From positions 248,001 to 312,000 of the forward strand of contig NZ_CP077107.1 of assembly GCF_019263745.1 (NCBI RefSeq): DNA of 64,000 nt, in the 5' to 3' direction. The stretch's first letter is position 1, and each line of letters starts with the position of its first letter. This document shows, in pieces, positions 9,067-63,164 of the stretch. Both the position numbers and the translations under genes were made by a program. This stretch comes from Methanospirillum hungatei. Lineage in GTDB: Archaea > Halobacteriota > Methanomicrobia > Methanomicrobiales > Methanospirillaceae. The notes under the pieces were generated by a model. That model was not told where the DNA came from and searched no databases. It saw only the letters and a list, made by a program, of their open reading frames with translations.

Positions 9067-10407
9067 ATGGCGATACACCCTATAGAATTCAGATATGGAA
9101 CCCCTGAGATGAAGCAGGTCTTTGGCGAAGAACACCGTTTTCATTGTATTATTGAGGCAGAGATAGCTCTTGCAAAGGCTGAAGGATCTCTTGGAATGAT
9201 ACCTGATGAAGATGCGGCTGTTATTGCAGAAAAAGCTCAGGGGGCATCACTTCAACGATCAAAAGAGATTGAAGAAGAGATTCATCATGACATGATGGCT
9301 GTTGTCCGGGCTGTATCAGAAGTTTGTGGACCGGCCGGGAGATGGATTCACTATGGAGCTACATCCAATGATATCCTTGATACCGCAACCGGACTTCAGA
9401 TTCGTGATGCGCTCGATATCATCGAGATTAAATTAAAAAATATTCTATCTGTGCTTCTTAAAAGAGCAGAAGAGACTAAACATCTGGTATGTATTGGCCG
9501 GACACATGGGCAGCATGGCGTTCCGACAACATATGGACTTCGGTTTGCGATCTGGGCGAGTGAAATTGGAAGGCATATTGAACGATTATCGCAGATCCGT
9601 CCACGAGTATGTGTCGGACAACTAACCGGTGCGGTTGGTACACAGGCAGCCCTTGGAGAGAAAGGTATCGAGATACAAGAACAGATGATGAAATTTTTAA
9701 ATCTTTCATCAGTTGATGTCTCAAACCAGATTATACAACGTGACCGATATGCTGAATATTTCTGTTTCCTGGCAAATCTTGCTACAACCCTTGACAAAAT
9801 CGGTGTAGAGATCAGATCTCTGCAGCGTACAGAAATAGGTGAAGTTGAGGAAGCATTTGGTTCAAAGCAGGTTGGATCTTCAACTATGCCTCATAAGAGA
9901 AACCCAATTAAAAGTGAACAGGTATGTGGTCTTGCCCGAATTATACGTTCGTCAGTTGAACCCGCTTTTCAGAACAATACTCTCTGGGATGAACGTGATC
10001 TGACCAATTCTTCACCAGAGCGAATTTTATTTCCCGAAGCCACTATTCTGACAGACCATATTCTGAAAACGATGGTGTCTGTTCTTGAAGACCTGAACCT
10101 GAGGGAGGACCGGATTAAACAGAATTTGTCAATGCTTCATGGAATAAATATGGCAGAATCAATCATGATTGAATTGACAAAAAAAGGGATGGGAAGGCAG
10201 GAGGCTCATGAAGTAATCAGAGAAAAGAGTATGGAAGCTCTTACCACAGGACAACCACTTTCTGTTCTCCTCTCTCAGACACCCGAAGTTACCCGGTTTA
10301 TTCAAGCAAGAGATATTGAAAAACTGCTTTCACCCGAGTCATATATCGGGACATCAGTCCGGCAGGTTGAGCGGGTAATTAAAAAATTAGAATCGTTATA
10401 TCTGTAA
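9067..10407 (+). CDS. purB: Adenylosuccinate lyase
   Basis: PurB removes fumarate from SAICAR and from adenylosuccinate in purine synthesis. The fumarase/aspartase signature SSTMPHKRNP is present at about residue 275, GRTHGQHGVPTTYG earlier, and HYGATSNDILDT near residue 100 contains conserved catalytic-site residues. I start at ATG 9067 because MAIHPIEFRYGTPEM is the normal family N-terminus and AGGT lies just upstream; the in-frame ATG at 9046 adds seven residues. At 446 residues it has the usual length. It is a single-gene unit with a convergent neighbour 4 bases downstream. Confidence 0.95.
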   Translation: MAIHPIEFRYGTPEMKQVFGEEHRFHCIIEAEIALAKAEGSLGMIPDEDAAVIAEKAQGASLQRSKEIEEEIHHDMMAVVRAVSEVCGPAGRWIHYGATSNDILDTATGLQIRDALDIIEIKLKNILSVLLKRAEETKHLVCIGRTHGQHGVPTTYGLRFAIWASEIGRHIERLSQIRPRVCVGQLTGAVGTQAALGEKGIEIQEQMMKFLNLSSVDVSNQIIQRDRYAEYFCFLANLATTLDKIGVEIRSLQRTEIGEVEEAFGSKQVGSSTMPHKRNPIKSEQVCGLARIIRSSVEPAFQNNTLWDERDLTNSSPERILFPEATILTDHILKTMVSVLEDLNLREDRIKQNLSMLHGINMAESIMIELTKKGMGRQEAHEVIREKSMEALTTGQPLSVLLSQTPEVTRFIQARDIEKLLSPESYIGTSVRQVERVIKKLESLYL

Positions 10408-54932: not shown

Positions 54933-56969
54933 ATGAAACTCACCGACAACGAAATTCGAGACATCAACCGCTACCTCGAATCTGGTAAACCCCTCCCCGA
55001 TTCCTACCGGTTCATCCTTTTTGATGAGAAACGAGAAGTAGAACTCGTCTGGAATGGAAAAACCAACGAAGTCTCAACCGCAGTCCTTCCCTTCCAAATC
55101 ATCGAACAAATTGACGAACCCAGAAAAGAAAAAGACACCAAAATTCAACAAACCCTCTTTGACCTGGACGACCGGGGCAGACAGATCAAAGGATGGACTA
55201 ACAAACTGATCTGGGGAGACAACAAACTCATCCTATCCAGCCTGAAGAATGGACCTCTTCGGGAAGAGATAGAGAAACAGGGTGGAATCAAACTCATCTA
55301 TATCGATCCACCCTTCGATGTCGGGGCCGACTTCTCAATGAGTATCGAGATAGGGGATGAGAGTTTCATAAAACAACCGGGAATCCTTGAAGAAATTGCC
55401 TACCGGGATACATGGGGTCGGGGAGCGGATAGTTTCATTTCAATGATCTATGAGCGGTTAGTGCTAATGAGGGACTTGCTTGCAGAAGATGGAAGTATCT
55501 ATGTTCATTGCGATTGGAGAGTAAATAGTCTTATCAGATTGGTTTTAGACGAGGTATTCGGGAAAAATAATTTTAAAAATCAGATTGTATGGCAACGATT
55601 CAATTTTCATGCAGATTCTAAACGATATGGTATTGTTGTTGATGAAATTTTATTTTATTCTTTTTCTGATAAATTCATTTGGAACCCATTATCTGCACCA
55701 ATTAAAGAATCTTACATTTCAAGTCATTTTAGAAACCAAGATCCCGATGGGCGAAAATATAAAATGGCTGACATTTTAGCAAAAGGGCAGGGCCCAGCTA
55801 GGAAATTCGGAGATAGAATCCTAGAACCTCCTGCAGGTACTCACTGGAGATTTAGTCAAGAGAAAATTGATGAATTAATAGCTGTAGGGAAAATAACATT
55901 TAGCAAAACAGGCCGCCCAGCTGTGAAGTTGTATTTAGATGAAAAAGAGGGAAGTGCGATACATTGTCTATGGACTGACATTCCCCCAGTTAATCCTATG
56001 GCTGCCGAAAGAATTGATTACCCTACCCAAAAACCAGAAGCCCTCCTTGAACGAATCATCAAAGCCTCATCAAACGAAGGCGATCTCGTTGCAGACTTCT
56101 TCTGTGGTTCTGGTACTACTCTTGCAGTCGCCGAAAAACTCGGTCGAAAATGGATCGGGTCAGACCTCGGAAAGTTCGCCATTCATACTACCCGGAAACG
56201 AATGATCGGAGTCCAGCGGGAGATCAAAAACTCCGGAAAAGACTTCCGGGCATTCGAAATCCTCAACCTAGGAAAATATGAACGCCAGCATTATATCGGA
56301 ATTAACGAAAACCTCCGGGACGAAGAAAAACGAAAACAACTCGAACAGAAAGAGAAAGACTTCGTCGATCTCATCCTCCACGCCTACAAAGCAGAACCAG
56401 TCGCCAACTTCTCTACCTTCCACGGAAAGAAACAAAACCGACTTGTCACTGTCGGTCCGGTCAACCTCCCCGTTACCCGGCTCTTTGTCGAAGAAATCAT
56501 CTCTGAATGTAGACAGAAAAGGATCACCAAAGTCGATATCCTCGGATTCGAGTTTGAAATGGGACTCTTCCCCAGTGTCCAGGAGGAGGCCAAAGGAAAA
56601 GGAATAGACCTTGCTCTGAAATACATCCCCCGTGAAGTCTTTGATAAACGGGCAATAGAAAAGAACCAGGTCGTATTCCACGATGTCTCGTACATCGAAG
56701 TCACTCCCCATATCAAAGGCAACTCAATCTCTGTGGAGCTCTCGGACTTTTCGGTTCACTATAATCAGGATACCATAGCGAATGTGGAAGAAAACCTCAA
56801 ACCCGGTGGAAATAAAATTGTTGTCGATAACGGCCAGATAGTCAAGATCTCCAAGGATAAGAAAGGCATCACCACCCGGGAGCCGCTCACACAGGCCTGG
56901 ACTGACTGGATAGATTACTGGTCGGTTGATTTTGACTTTGAAAGCAAGAAAGAGATCATCACCGTCTAG
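54933..56969 (+). CDS. mod: Type III restriction-modification methyltransferase (Mod), ended by in-frame TAG
   Basis: Mod methylates N6-adenine and recognises DNA for the type III complex. The 678-residue frame has motif IV DPPF (about residue 126) in [11 protein letters not shown] and motif I FFCGSGTT (about 387), the beta-class order, with the target-recognition domain between. The 5' and 3' parts have mostly C-ending codons; the middle (about 55500-56010) is far more AT-rich. The frame ends at a TAG at 56967-56969, but coding continues in the same frame for 70 more codons (to 57182). The protein is therefore probably a truncated form of a 749-residue Mod. Confidence 0.88.
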
Positions 56970-57182
56970 AACACCGATGGGGAGATAGAAGAGATCTGGT
57001 CCGGAGACTACATCTTTGAGAATGAATGGCAATCATTCAGGACAAGAAAAGATCGGAGCCTTGAACTAAAGAGCATCTATAAAGAAGTCCTCCCAGGCAG
57101 ACGGAAAATAGCCGTGAAAGTGGTCGATATTTTCGGGAATGACACCATGAAAATTATCGACGTATATATCGGAGACAAGTAA
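56970..57182 (+). pseudogene. C-terminal part of Mod after an in-frame TAG
   Basis: After the TAG the same frame encodes 70 residues with FENEWQSFRTRKDRSLELKS and VVDIFGNDT, which look like the normal end of type III Mod proteins, and it stops with TAA at 57180-57182, two bases before the KilA-N gene. It has no own ribosome site. A nonsense mutation, readthrough or sequencing error would each explain this. Confidence 0.75.
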
Positions 57183-57183
57183 C

Positions 57184-57999
57184 ATGGCAAAAATCACCGT
57201 CCTTGATAAAGAGATCACTCTCTATATCCAGAATGAAGAGGATTACATCTGCATCACTGATATTGCCAAGTACAAGGATCCAGAACGAAGCGATGACATC
57301 ATCCGTAATTGGATTCGAAACCGGAATACAATAGAATTTCTTGGAATATGGGAACAACTGAACAACCCAAATTTTAATCCCGTCGAATTCGACGGGTTTA
57401 GAAAACAGGCAGGACTCAACAGTTTCACATTAACATCGAAACAATGGATTGAAAGAACGGGAGCAATAGGACTCATTTCCAAAGCGGGAAGATATGGGGG
57501 AACCTATGCTCACAAAGATATCGCCTTTGAATTTGCCTCCTGGATATCAGTAGAATTCAAACTCTATCTCATCAAAGAGTTCCAACGGCTCAAAGAAGAG
57601 GAACAAAAACAACTTGGATGGGATATCCGGAGAAACCTTGCCAAGATTAATTACCGGATTCATACCGATGCAATCAAGGAAAATCTTATCCCGATTGAAC
57701 TCTCGAAAAAGCAGATAAACCAAGTATATGCTTCAGAAGAAGACCTCCTCAACATGGCACTCTTCGGGATAACCGCAAAGGACTGGCGGGAGGCGAACCC
57801 GGATAAGAAGGGAAACATACGGGATTATGCTGACATCTCTCAACTCGTCTGTCTCTCAAACCTAGAAAACCTCAATGCTCATTTTATTAGCGATAACCTC
57901 CCCCAGAGCGAACGACTCTTAAAACTCAACAAAATTGCCATACATCAGATGAAACTCCTCACCGAAGAATCTGGCGTGAAACAAATCGGAGGTAAATAA
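57184..57999 (+). CDS. KilA-N domain protein in the type III R-M operon
   Basis: The 271-residue protein has a KilA-N domain (about residues 18-135: YICITDIAKYKDPERSDD, IRNWIRNRNTIEFLGIW, SWISVEFKLYLIKEFQRL in pieces), a DNA-binding fold known from phage repressors and other viral proteins. The C-terminal half is helical and of unknown type. It lies between mod and res, two bases after the mod frame and directly before res, so all three are co-expressed. A role in control or DNA binding of the R-M system is inferred. Confidence 0.85.
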   Translation: MAKITVLDKEITLYIQNEEDYICITDIAKYKDPERSDDIIRNWIRNRNTIEFLGIWEQLNNPNFNPVEFDGFRKQAGLNSFTLTSKQWIERTGAIGLISKAGRYGGTYAHKDIAFEFASWISVEFKLYLIKEFQRLKEEEQKQLGWDIRRNLAKINYRIHTDAIKENLIPIELSKKQINQVYASEEDLLNMALFGITAKDWREANPDKKGNIRDYADISQLVCLSNLENLNAHFISDNLPQSERLLKLNKIAIHQMKLLTEESGVKQIGGK

Positions 58000-60675
58000 A
58001 TGGCACTTCATCCGGACTTTCCCAGTGATCCCTACGCAATATTAAACCCGGACATCCGGTGGTTCCCAGCTGATGAACTCCTGAGAACACAAGGATATGA
58101 AAAACTCCTCCCCCCGCTGGTTGCCACATTACGAAAAAAGGTTAATGCCTGGCGGGAAAGCGGATATGAAGGAGCAAGTGCAACCAGCCGGGCACTAATC
58201 AGGTGGTGGTTTGAAGAACCGCATCCGATCCCAAAATCAGATGGAACCCTTTTTAATTTTAGATACTATTTTGCACAACGGGAAGCCGTCGAAACCATCA
58301 TCTACCTATACGAAATTGCCCAGATAAAAGACAAATACGATCTACTCCGGTATGATAGTTCACAAGCCATTTCTGCCGGAATGTTCCCTGAAACATGGAA
58401 CAGGTATGTCATTAAAATGGCAACCGGGAGCGGGAAGACAAAAGTATTGAGTCTCCTCCTAGCCTGGAGTTATTACCATAAAATCTACGAAGAAGACTCT
58501 ACGCTCTCACGGAACTTTCTTGTCATTGCTCCGAACATCATTGTCCTTGATAGAATACGGGCAGATTTTGATGGACTTAAAATATTCTTCTCTGATCCTA
58601 TCATTCCGGATAACGGGTATGAAGGCCAGAACTGGCGTGATGATTTCCAGCTTACCCTGCATATCCAGGACAATGTCCATATCACCAGAAAAACCGGGAA
58701 CATCTTCCTGACTAACATTCACCGGGTCTATGACAGTAATAACCGGGAACCATCATTCGAAGATGAAGATATGATGGATTACTTCCTTGGAAAAAAGCCA
58801 GTCGGAGCAACAACCGACTCAAAATTAGACCTGGGAGATATTGTTCGTGACATCGATGAACTCATGATACTCAACGATGAGGCCCATCACGTCCACGATG
58901 AAAAACTCGCCTGGTTTAAATCAATTCAGGATATCCATAACCGGTTGTTACAAAAAGATGGGAAACTCTCCATGCAGATAGATGTGACCGCTACCCCTCG
59001 GCACAATAATGGAGCCATTTTTGTACAAACGATATCAGACTACCCCCTCGTTGAGGCGATTCATCAGAATATCGTGAAGCATCCAGTCCTTCCGGATTCA
59101 GCAAGTAGGGCAAAACTCATCGAGAAGAAGAGTTCCAAATACTCAGAAAAATACGAGGATTATATACATCTCGGATATCTGGAATGGGAGAAAGTCTTTG
59201 ACGTCCATGAAAAACTAGGAAAAAAAGCCGTCCTTTTCGTAATGACTGATGATACAAAAAACTGTGATGAAGTATCAGAATATTTGCAGTCAAAATACCC
59301 CAAATTAAAAGATGGAGTTCTTGTTATCCACACAAAAAATAACGGAGAAATCTCTGAATCCAGCACTGGAAAGTCATTAGAAGAGTTGGAACGGTTACGA
59401 AAAGCCGCCAATGAAGTTGACTTGACAGAAAATAATTACAAGGCGATTGTTTCGGTTCTGATGCTAAAAGAAGGATGGGATGTAAAAAATGTCACCACTA
59501 TCGTAGGGCTCCGGGCATACAGTTCAAAGAGCAATATCCTTCCAGAACAGACTCTTGGGAGGGGCCTTCGGAGAATGTACCGGGGGGATGATGATATCAT
59601 TGAAACGGTGAGTGTTATCGGAACCGACGCATTCATGGATTTTGTTGAAACTATCCGAAATGAAGGTGTTGAAATTGACCGGAGAAAGATGGGTCAAGGT
59701 ACAGAACCAAAAGCCCCCCTGGTTATCGAAGTTGATAATGAGAACAATAAGAAGGATATCGAAGCATTGGACATTGAAATACCAGTCCTATCACCGAGAA
59801 TATATCGTGAGTATAAAAACCTCTCACTCCTTAATGTATCCACTTTCACCAACAGAAAATATCCTGTCATTCAATTTTCAGAAGAGGAACAACGGGAAAT
59901 AATCTTTCGTGATATTGCAACAGAAGTCGTAGACCATATTACAAAACTCGACACCAGTATCGCCCCAAATTATCAGAGTGTCATAGGATTTTTTACCCAG
60001 GTAATTATGAAAGACCTCCGATTGGTGAGTGGTTATGATATCTTGTATGGAAAAGTAAAAGAATTTGTAATTAATGGACTATTTGAAGAGAAAATCGACA
60101 TCAATTCCCTCAACATTTTAAGAAATCTTTCAGAAGTTGATGTTTCAAAAACACTGGTCGAGACATTTAAGAAGGCCATTAATGAATTGACCGTCCTTAA
60201 TAAAGGAGAAGCGGAGATTAGGGATAGTATCAAAATCAGCAAGTGTCGGCCTTTTGTTGCAAAAGAACAGGGATATTTAATTCCGAAGAAAAGTATTTTC
60301 AATAAAATCATAGGGGATAGTGAATTGGAACTTGAGTTTGCAAACTTTCTCGAAAGTTGCGATGATATCATTTCCTATGTTAAGAACTATTTCGCTGTCA
60401 ATTTTAAGATCGATTACCAAAATCACAAAGGAGAGATCTCTAATTATTATCCGGATTTCATTGTGAAAAGGAATGAATCAGAGATCTATATCATTGAAAC
60501 TAAAGGCCTAGAAGATCTGGATGTCCCATTGAAAACCGAACGTCTTGATCAATGGTGTAAAGATGTCAATTCAAAAAATACAGATGTCACGTATCATTGG
60601 TTATTCGTGAAAGACGATGAGTTCCGGCAAAAGATCCCCAGAAGTTTCCAAGAATTGATAAAACGATTTTCATAA
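58000..60675 (+). CDS. res: Type III restriction endonuclease subunit (Res)
   Basis: Res is the ATP-driven translocase and nuclease of the type III complex. The 891-residue protein has Walker A MATGSGKTK (about 140-148), DEAH box ILNDEAHHVHDEK (about 292), DVTATPR, and motif VI EQTLGRGLRRM (about 515-525). Near the C-terminus NYYPDFIVK and YIIETKG form the PD-(D/E)xK nuclease (about residues 812-835). It starts 8 bases after a GGAGG site at the end of the KilA-N gene. It seems intact. Confidence 0.93.
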   Translation: MALHPDFPSDPYAILNPDIRWFPADELLRTQGYEKLLPPLVATLRKKVNAWRESGYEGASATSRALIRWWFEEPHPIPKSDGTLFNFRYYFAQREAVETIIYLYEIAQIKDKYDLLRYDSSQAISAGMFPETWNRYVIKMATGSGKTKVLSLLLAWSYYHKIYEEDSTLSRNFLVIAPNIIVLDRIRADFDGLKIFFSDPIIPDNGYEGQNWRDDFQLTLHIQDNVHITRKTGNIFLTNIHRVYDSNNREPSFEDEDMMDYFLGKKPVGATTDSKLDLGDIVRDIDELMILNDEAHHVHDEKLAWFKSIQDIHNRLLQKDGKLSMQIDVTATPRHNNGAIFVQTISDYPLVEAIHQNIVKHPVLPDSASRAKLIEKKSSKYSEKYEDYIHLGYLEWEKVFDVHEKLGKKAVLFVMTDDTKNCDEVSEYLQSKYPKLKDGVLVIHTKNNGEISESSTGKSLEELERLRKAANEVDLTENNYKAIVSVLMLKEGWDVKNVTTIVGLRAYSSKSNILPEQTLGRGLRRMYRGDDDIIETVSVIGTDAFMDFVETIRNEGVEIDRRKMGQGTEPKAPLVIEVDNENNKKDIEALDIEIPVLSPRIYREYKNLSLLNVSTFTNRKYPVIQFSEEEQREIIFRDIATEVVDHITKLDTSIAPNYQSVIGFFTQVIMKDLRLVSGYDILYGKVKEFVINGLFEEKIDINSLNILRNLSEVDVSKTLVETFKKAINELTVLNKGEAEIRDSIKISKCRPFVAKEQGYLIPKKSIFNKIIGDSELELEFANFLESCDDIISYVKNYFAVNFKIDYQNHKGEISNYYPDFIVKRNESEIYIIETKGLEDLDVPLKTERLDQWCKDVNSKNTDVTYHWLFVKDDEFRQKIPRSFQELIKRFS

Positions 60676-61280: not shown

Positions 61281-61892
61281 TTAACCATTAACACTATCCA
61301 AAACTCCACTATTCGCCGTAAACAAAGTAACATCCCCGACTGAAGAGAAATCAGCATCATCACTAATGATCTGGAGAGGAATCCCTTCAGCATGTAGCGA
61401 CTCTACCATACAAGCATCATATGCATCCAGTTTATGACTCCCCATTCGTTCAATGACTTTATGGGTAAAATCTGAAGTTAAATGAACCGGAATCGAAACC
61501 GACATAGCCTCAACCTGACTCCAGGCTAGTTCAATCTCTTCAATAACACCCGGACGTCGATGAGCATACTCATGACGATAGGCTTTCGGAGAGATATCAA
61601 TTCCCGTTTCCCTCTTAAAGATATCATACTCAGTTCGTTCAATCAGGTTGCTCAGTTCAGAAAACGATAATTCAGAACGATAGAGTGTCCCCTTCACATT
61701 CAGAACCTTCTTAATAAAATCGGGATAGTTTTTGATCTGTTTTCCCCTGTACCTGGGAAGCCCCTGACCGGCAATCTGGGATGCTACCCAGAACCAGACA
61801 TTCGTATCGACAAAAAAAGAGTCCTCCGGGTGAGGATCATACCGGTTGATGTCAACAATCTGTGACACAACAATATATTTTCGAGAACTCAC
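61281..61892 (-). CDS. PIN-domain protein (cassette gene 3)
   Basis: The 203-residue protein has the acidic residues of a PIN nuclease: Asp in FFVDTNVWFWV (about 29), Glu in SELSFSELSNLIE (about 79), Asp in HKLDAYDACMVE, and Asp in IISDDADF. It is longer than VapC toxins and no VapB antitoxin gene adjoins. It starts with GTG at 61892, overlapping the STAS-like stop by four bases (GTGA), so it depends on translation of the genes before it. It probably cuts RNA; the target is unknown. Confidence 0.82.
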   Translation of the reverse strand: MSSRKYIVVSQIVDINRYDPHPEDSFFVDTNVWFWVASQIAGQGLPRYRGKQIKNYPDFIKKVLNVKGTLYRSELSFSELSNLIERTEYDIFKRETGIDISPKAYRHEYAHRRPGVIEEIELAWSQVEAMSVSIPVHLTSDFTHKVIERMGSHKLDAYDACMVESLHAEGIPLQIISDDADFSSVGDVTLFTANSGVLDSVNG

Positions 61893-62236
61893 GCACTCTC
61901 CGCAATCCCTAGAAGAGTGTCATCAATTGCCTTTTGCAGACTTGGATTCGAATAATACTCCTTAGCATTCGAAATAACTTTCTTTGCCACCTGGTTCCCA
62001 TACGGTGAAAGATTGACAAATTTCAAATGGCCCTGTAACTGCTCAATTGGAATATCTTTGAGCAACTGTCCTATTGCGGTATTAAAGAAAGGTGATGCAC
62101 AGATATGAATATCTGTGAAGTCAAGCGTAACGTCTTCTCCCTTTTCAAGGACCGGATGGACTAGATCAAATATTTTTTGCCCATCATCCACCGAAATACA
62201 GTGTTCACCGGTAAGGGTAATAACTTTAATATTCAT
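61889..62236 (-). CDS. STAS-like DUF4325 protein (cassette gene 2)
   Basis: The 115-residue protein has the DUF4325 pattern: ISVDDGQKIFDLVHPVL, VTLDFTDIHICASPFFNTAIGQLL, LKFVNLSPYGNQVAKKVI and YYSNPSLQKAID. STAS-like domains act as anti-anti-sigma or docking modules. I use ATG 62236, which has GAGGTGAG six bases upstream; the upstream in-frame starts overlap the GHKL gene. It lies between the GHKL ATPase gene (10-base gap) and the PIN gene (4-base overlap). Confidence 0.82.
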   Translation of the reverse strand: MNIKVITLTGEHCISVDDGQKIFDLVHPVLEKGEDVTLDFTDIHICASPFFNTAIGQLLKDIPIEQLQGHLKFVNLSPYGNQVAKKVISNAKEYYSNPSLQKAIDDTLLGIAESA

Positions 62237-62246
62237 AATTCTCACC

Positions 62247-63164
62247 TCATGCCCAGATATCATCAATTGTTTCATCTGAAAAATGATAGTATTTCTCATC
62301 ACACCGGAGCATCAGGTTGATAACTGTACCTTCAAACTCCGGTAATCCTGATTCATAGATCTCTTTGTCATTTCCTATAAAGACATAGCCATCATTACTG
62401 TAAAACTCAAGAGTTCCTTTGTTTAACCGGATGAACTCTTTCAGGAGATCAAGACCGACTCCGGCATTTCTCTTCCCTTTCTTCGTAGAACTCCCTTTCG
62501 TAAATGCCCATTGTAATGCCTTATCGGAAGTGATACTATCAATATCACGTCCCTTTTGGATAGCGTATCTTCGAACATTGACCGGAATACCAACACCAAA
62601 ATCAACCAGGGTAAGATTGAGTTCATTCAGAATTGGATACTTTTGGCCACAGGTAAATATCCCATGCTGGGTTTCACTATGCTCAAAAGCATTCGTGAAT
62701 ATTTCCCATACTGCCCCAACAATCTCGTCCAGTAAGCGGGGACTAATGGAGAGCCAGGATCGCAAAAGCCACTCTTCGTGTAAATAATAGATAATTGCAT
62801 CCTGATCAGTTTTTTCAAAATTTTGAATGGAAACAGCATTTCCTTGCCATTTCGGTTCATCATATCCACAGAACGATAAAAATCCATTTTGGGCCAGGTT
62901 TGTATGAACATTTCTCTTCATTGATGGAATGTTAAGCTCAACCCGACCACCATTTCTTTTAATATGAGTAACCAATCCTCCCAAAACCGCTACAGCATTA
63001 TGACGGATAAATAAACAACGATCAAATGTGAAAAGTATGTGACCTGAAAAATCCCGATATTTTTTTGAGAGAGAGAATAGGTAATCAAAGTCCGGATGAT
63101 GATCGTTTAATGTGGGTATCGAGATTTTTTCCGGGGGACTGAAAGAAAATAATGATACTGTCAT
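62247..63164 (-). CDS. STAS-like/GHKL ATPase fusion (cassette gene 1)
   Basis: The 305-residue protein has an N-terminal STAS-like region (about 1-110, FTFDRCLFIRHNAVAVLGGL) and a C-terminal GHKL/HATPase domain with N box VWEIFTNAFEHSE (about 168), G1 box LVDFGVGIP and G2 box KGKRNAGVGLDLLKEFI. It has no dimerisation or phospho-acceptor His domain, so it resembles anti-sigma-like kinases such as SpoIIAB more than sensor kinases. It is the first gene of the three-gene cassette; a TATA-like stretch lies just upstream of ATG 63164. Confidence 0.82.
   Translation of the reverse strand: MTVSLFSFSPPEKISIPTLNDHHPDFDYLFSLSKKYRDFSGHILFTFDRCLFIRHNAVAVLGGLVTHIKRNGGRVELNIPSMKRNVHTNLAQNGFLSFCGYDEPKWQGNAVSIQNFEKTDQDAIIYYLHEEWLLRSWLSISPRLLDEIVGAVWEIFTNAFEHSETQHGIFTCGQKYPILNELNLTLVDFGVGIPVNVRRYAIQKGRDIDSITSDKALQWAFTKGSSTKKGKRNAGVGLDLLKEFIRLNKGTLEFYSNDGYVFIGNDKEIYESGLPEFEGTVINLMLRCDEKYYHFSDETIDDIWA

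Follow-up and report, generated by a model that had tools for sequence, protein, structure and literature searches.

A probable archaeal VapKSC operon in Methanospirillum hungatei and the joint absence of kinase and phosphosite among related VapS proteins

The described system and the Methanospirillum locus

VapKSC is an anti-phage system of Escherichia sp. E4736 (Chambers et al., EMBO J 2026, June 2026; PMC13373217; PDB 9Z7O). VapC from this organism is toxic and is neutralised by VapS, for which the VapS C-terminus is required, and in the crystal structure of VapS2VapC2 residue Ser48 of VapS is buried in the interface, the exchange S48E abolishing the binding (PMC13373217). Protection against phage Bas42 amounts to approximately 2 log and is lost with VapC D28A, VapS S48A or VapK F54A (PMC13373217). 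In the model presented in the paper VapS holds VapC until VapK, which probably senses single-stranded DNA (ssDNA), phosphorylates VapS at Ser48 and frees VapC; both the phosphorylation of VapS by VapK, a protein found to be insoluble, and the ssDNA trigger were deduced there by analogy with CapK/CapS (PMC13373217). The main text counts 289 instances in "diverse bacterial groups" and mentions neither vapKSC in archaea nor VapS without VapK (PMC13373217). Besides this paper, the literature searched contains none using the name VapKSC.

The cassette considered here lies in a window of 64,000 nucleotides from the methanogenic archaeon Methanospirillum hungatei (contig NZ_CP077107.1, positions 248,001 to 312,000). 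A check of the open reading frames in the window confirmed three minus-strand genes in the order vapK-vapS-vapC. The features are:

62247..63164, minus strand: vapK, STAS plus GHKL kinase-like protein, 305 aa (PF02518; AlphaFold2 model; SpoIIAB fold match)
62862..63143, minus strand: VapK N-terminal STAS-like domain, residues 8-101 (RsbS profile match; 1vc1)
62295..62846, minus strand: VapK GHKL kinase-like domain, residues 107-290 (conserved motifs; SpoIIAB/RsbW fold match)
61889..62236, minus strand: vapS, STAS-like DUF4325 antitoxin, 115 aa (PF14213; profile match to 9z7o_A)
62093..62095, minus strand: codon of VapS Ser48, the predicted phospho-acceptor (alignment; PMC13373217)
61892..61957, minus strand: VapS C-terminal tail, residues 94-115 (alignment to 9Z7O VapS; PMC13373217)
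61281..61892, minus strand: vapC, PIN-domain nuclease toxin, 203 aa (PF01850; profile match to 9z7o_C)
54933..60675, plus strand: type III restriction-modification (R-M) system, context outside the VapKSC system (PADLOC models)

A 10-base gap (62237-62246) separates the vapK stop codon from the ATG of vapS at 62236, and the vapS stop codon (61889-61891) overlaps with the GTG start of vapC at 61892 in the sequence GTGA (61889-61892), exactly as given in the initial annotation. Each of the three Pfam matches, HATPase_c PF02518 (E 5.1e-7), DUF4325 PF14213 (E 3.2e-17) and PIN PF01850 (E 3.7e-5), exceeds the gathering cut-off. Neither PADLOC nor NCBIfam has a model naming the three-gene system, and the initial annotation had stated that no described system of this make-up was known. 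This statement has to be withdrawn: the profile of the STAS family matches chain A of 9Z7O, Escherichia VapS, with E 1.9e-30, and that of the PIN family matches chain C, Escherichia VapC, with E 9.6e-32. We consider it very probable that the Methanospirillum cassette is an archaeal VapKSC operon, in which VapK would free VapC via Ser48 of VapS. The system has been known in its mechanism since VapKSC was described; what is new is its archaeal membership, by which a kinase-gated anti-phage toxin system described for bacteria is extended to the Archaea. Of the earlier proposals, that of a kinase-STAS pair gating the PIN nuclease is supported by the homology with VapKSC, from which the function of the archaeal copy is read, and that of an anti-phage or stress-induced RNA-cutting module is strengthened by the homologue, whose protective effect in E. 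coli (about 2 log) needs both the phosphosite and the kinase residue.

The AlphaFold2 model of VapK (pLDDT 86.5) contains only a STAS and a GHKL domain, with no helix-turn-helix (HTH) at the N-terminus. Residues 107-290 have the anti-sigma kinase SpoIIAB as best fold match (Z 14.6), RsbW giving Z 11.0. For residues 8-101 VIA-align gave Z 9.4 with the STAS protein TM1442 (1vc1), and the family profile matched RsbS with E 0.0023, which bears out the STAS-like N-terminal part already suspected in the GHKL protein. The N-box residues E154, N158 and H162, as well as D188 and G235/G237, are invariant or nearly so across 19 VapK, and Phe52 (codon 63009-63011) lies in a column that is aromatic in 18 of the 19 aligned sequences. 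We infer that this column is probably the equivalent of VapK F54 and CapK W68, at the probable ssDNA site. A weak match of VapK to DrmA (E 3e-8) covers residues 111-290, hence the GHKL domain only, and was read as generic. A comparison of VapS with the VapK profile by hhalign gave no usable match that would point to a copy of VapS as the source of VapK's own STAS domain.

VapS consists of the STAS domain and a short tail, and there is no winged HTH (wHTH). Its Ser48, which has the same residue number as S48 of Escherichia VapS, aligns with S58 of SpoIIAA and S56 of RsbV, and in the family profile alignment the tail 94-115 is the counterpart of the VapC-inhibiting region 94-116 of Escherichia VapS. 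The catalytic acids of VapC are D29, E79, D156/D159 and D179/D181 in the window protein; the active-site acids are kept in 52-54 of the 54 family members. Its partner is a DUF4325/STAS protein and not a VapB antitoxin of the AbrB, RHH or Phd type.

Escherichia VapKSC and the cassette agree in gene order, in domains (STAS+GHKL, STAS with short C-terminus, PIN), in Ser48, in the PIN catalytic acids and in having other defence genes close by. They differ in host and by sequence divergence. CapK/CapS, a DNA-damage switch, likewise has a GHKL+STAS kinase that acts on a conserved STAS serine (PMC13373217), but CapS represses transcription with its wHTH and CapK has an N-terminal HTH, whereas the cassette has neither of these and comes with a PIN gene. 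With SpoIIAB/SpoIIAA and RsbW/RsbV the cassette shares the kinase fold and the position of the phospho-serine on the STAS protein; its target, however, is a nuclease toxin rather than a sigma factor, and its kinase has a STAS domain of its own. The PIN ribonuclease toxin is shared with VapBC type II toxin-antitoxin (TA) systems, in which the antitoxin is not a STAS domain and there is no third, kinase gene; moreover, unlike in VapBC, VapS in 9Z7O leaves the active-site Mg in place (PMC13373217).

Occurrence and genomic context

The PIN protein was found in three of 101 related genomes, namely in the window's own, in that of Methanospirillum stamsii and in one from a different family within this order. 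A search for DUF4325 matched 33 of 393 genomes of the phylum and 36 of 112 genomes of one family. The order GHKL-STAS-PIN occurs at archaeal loci (L001, L004, L009, L010, L011, L109), other methanogens included, on plasmid P5 of Deinococcus gobiensis, in Streptococcus phage Javan172, where it adjoins the integrase gene, and in one gut phage fragment and many viral contigs. Since the same order is seen again at approximately two dozen loci of archaea, a plasmid and prophages, it is not due to chance, and the neighbourhood survey suggested in the initial annotation finds the three families widely together. Few relatives turned up in the phage and plasmid collections searched, and a single scan of genome contigs gave only M. 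stamsii, so that the survey covers archaeal genomes, plasmids and phage or viral sequences.

In M. stamsii vapK is split (L117, approximately 9240-9470) by a MITE-like insertion of about 120 bp with 19-bp terminal inverted repeats (CTAGGAGGCTGTCCGAGAA), and vapS (with Ser48) and vapC are intact. The insertion may mark the beginning of the loss of the kinase.

The type III R-M system next to the cassette, with which the operon is convergent, was confirmed by PADLOC (mod 54933-56969, PDC-S22 57184-57999, res 58000-60675), as the initial annotation had it. The gene at 57184-57999 between mod and res matches the PADLOC candidate PDC-S22 with E 3.7e-136. In the relative from the other family (L115) the operon is followed by an HKD+Snf2 gene, matching PADLOC C3a139, and by type III R-M genes, at another archaeal locus (L112) vapC has a type I methyltransferase fragment as neighbour, and a lone VapS with Ala48 (L105) adjoins an HsdM gene. 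For CapK it has been remarked that cleavage by R-M enzymes may feed the DNA-damage sensor (PMC13373217), and the position of these vapKSC and VapS genes beside R-M genes agrees with this remark. A CHAT-NACHT-TPR protein (L112:14020-18054), possibly encoded by a STAND-type defence gene, was also seen near one archaeal vapKSC.

At one locus (L077:1087-3629) a GHKL gene is followed by a RES-domain-like gene (found with tblastn) and then by a VapS with Thr48. Here the PIN effector has apparently been swapped for a RES toxin, a single example. On four plasmids inspected, no GHKL or STAS annotation stands beside RES relatives of this effector, so effector swapping rests on this one locus.

Residue 48 of VapS and the linked kinase

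The most informative results are the co-loss pattern and the VapS genes of phages. Among 68 VapS sequences, 27 have VapK nearby and 41 do not. All 27 VapK-linked VapS, two of which are without a linked PIN gene (one at a contig end, one at the locus with the RES-like gene), carry Ser or Thr at site 48; three of them (L069, L075, L077) came from a search whose DNA pattern itself required Ser/Thr, and with these left out the count is 24 of 24. Ser/Thr48 is absent in 38 of the 41 VapS without VapK. Twenty-eight of the 41 belong to VapS-VapC pairs from methanogens of one family and all have Pro48; because they form one clade (support 100/98), they count as one event. The remaining 13 are lone VapS with Pro (4), Ala (2), Val, Met, Gly and Glu (1 each) or Ser (3) at the site.

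In a column scan for residue classes that distinguish lone from VapK-linked VapS, in which related sequences were treated as independent, site 48 gave p 3.4e-7. No other column sets the two groups clearly apart, and as the next-best one reaches only p 0.03, the loss at site 48 looks specific rather than part of a general decay. The tree shows 7 changes at site 48 and 9 in VapK linkage; well-supported branches offer only 4 independent pairs, of which on average 3.2 agree and none is contrary, the p value not being below 0.05.

A genome-wide search for VapK in 17 genomes with a VapSC pair yielded only weak matches to the GHKL profile (best E approximately 1e-4), compared with E 1e-110 or better in genomes with an intact operon. 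Because the matches are this weak across whole genomes, the kinase is absent in trans, too. Next to most of the VapSC pairs there is a gene for a LigD 3'-phosphoesterase, and often one of the rubrerythrin/EncFtn-like type; purifying selection acts on both genes of the VapK-less pairs, with a median dN/dS of 0.14 for vapS and 0.12 for vapC. The co-loss fits a VapK that acts on VapS via residue 48 and a VapS that would suffice alone as antitoxin. It provides evolutionary evidence for the phospho-switch, the kinase step of VapKSC having been only inferred in the original description (PMC13373217).

The persistence of VapK-less VapSC pairs under purifying selection in Methanosarcina-type genomes, together with the interrupted vapK of M. 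stamsii, could also be taken to indicate an ordinary two-gene TA pair, in which a STAS antitoxin and a PIN toxin stabilise a mobile region and the GHKL gene is a passenger. We regard this as unlikely, since in archaea, on a plasmid and in prophages alike VapS-VapC is found together with a VapK whose motifs are intact, since no VapK-linked VapS has lost Ser/Thr48, and since VapK F54A abolishes protection in Escherichia (PMC13373217). Another reading takes the cassette for a transcriptional switch of the CapK/CapS type, whose STAS protein would repress the operon or the R-M neighbours, the PIN protein being a bystander. Such a role is suggested by the adjoining type III R-M system and by CapK/CapS itself, which is related and can be flanked by R-M and by immune operons (PMC13373217). 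It is very unlikely in view of the missing HTH domains, of the match of the VapC-family profile to the nuclease crystallised with VapS, and of the 28 methanogen loci at which VapS and VapC have been kept without a linked kinase. The SpoIIAB/RsbW and STAS folds would, finally, be in keeping with a sigma/anti-sigma style regulator of general transcription or of the stress response, but it is a PIN nuclease that constantly goes with them, the neighbouring genes include none for a sigma factor, and archaea are not known to have sigma factors, which leaves this explanation with hardly any probability.

For the preferred reading, an archaeal VapKSC operon, each step in Methanospirillum is drawn from homology and conserved residues. 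In the resting state VapS would be bound to VapC, its C-terminal tail blocking the access of RNA. Upon phage infection or DNA damage VapK, probably activated by ssDNA, would phosphorylate VapS at Ser48, and the phosphorylated VapS would release VapC. The freed VapC would then cut RNA, probably rRNA or tRNA, and growth would stop.

VapS of large phages without a kinase

Nine viral contigs encode a VapS with no GHKL gene anywhere in the contig and no PIN neighbour; these contigs may be fragments. In seven of the nine Ser/Thr48 is absent (Pro, Met, Gly or Glu instead), and the C-terminal tail is short or divergent in L043, L047, L048, L053 and L055 and in the Ser-bearing L051. A tyrosine integrase is detectable in only one of the nine, whereas 15 of the 20 VapK-bearing contigs or phage records have one (p 0.003), and the median contig size is 83 kb versus 40 kb for the VapK-bearing ones (p 0.02). 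The neighbours of lone VapS include genes for a phage RNR, a primase, an RNase H and a Cas4-like exonuclease; in a search for the phrog_2 terminase only one lone-VapS contig gave a clear match.

These lone and mostly unphosphorylatable VapS of large phages are testable candidates for counter-defence. We tentatively suggest, as a possibility with the odds rather against it, that they are decoys which jam VapK (or hold VapC) and so silence VapKSC, and that the kinase-less VapSC of methanogens are TA pairs freed from gating by phosphorylation. Since the VapC-inhibiting tail is often lost, the target of a decoy would more likely be VapK than VapC.

A protein encoded on one phage contig (L044:3634-5268) combines BCS1_N and AAA domains in a single chain with a VapS-like domain whose residue at site 48 is Met. 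Other pairs of GHKL and DUF4325-like genes (L033, L036, L037, L110, L118; motif ...SFAH/SFAD), found in archaea and in a Clostridioides phage, have no PIN gene and probably constitute a separate subfamily.
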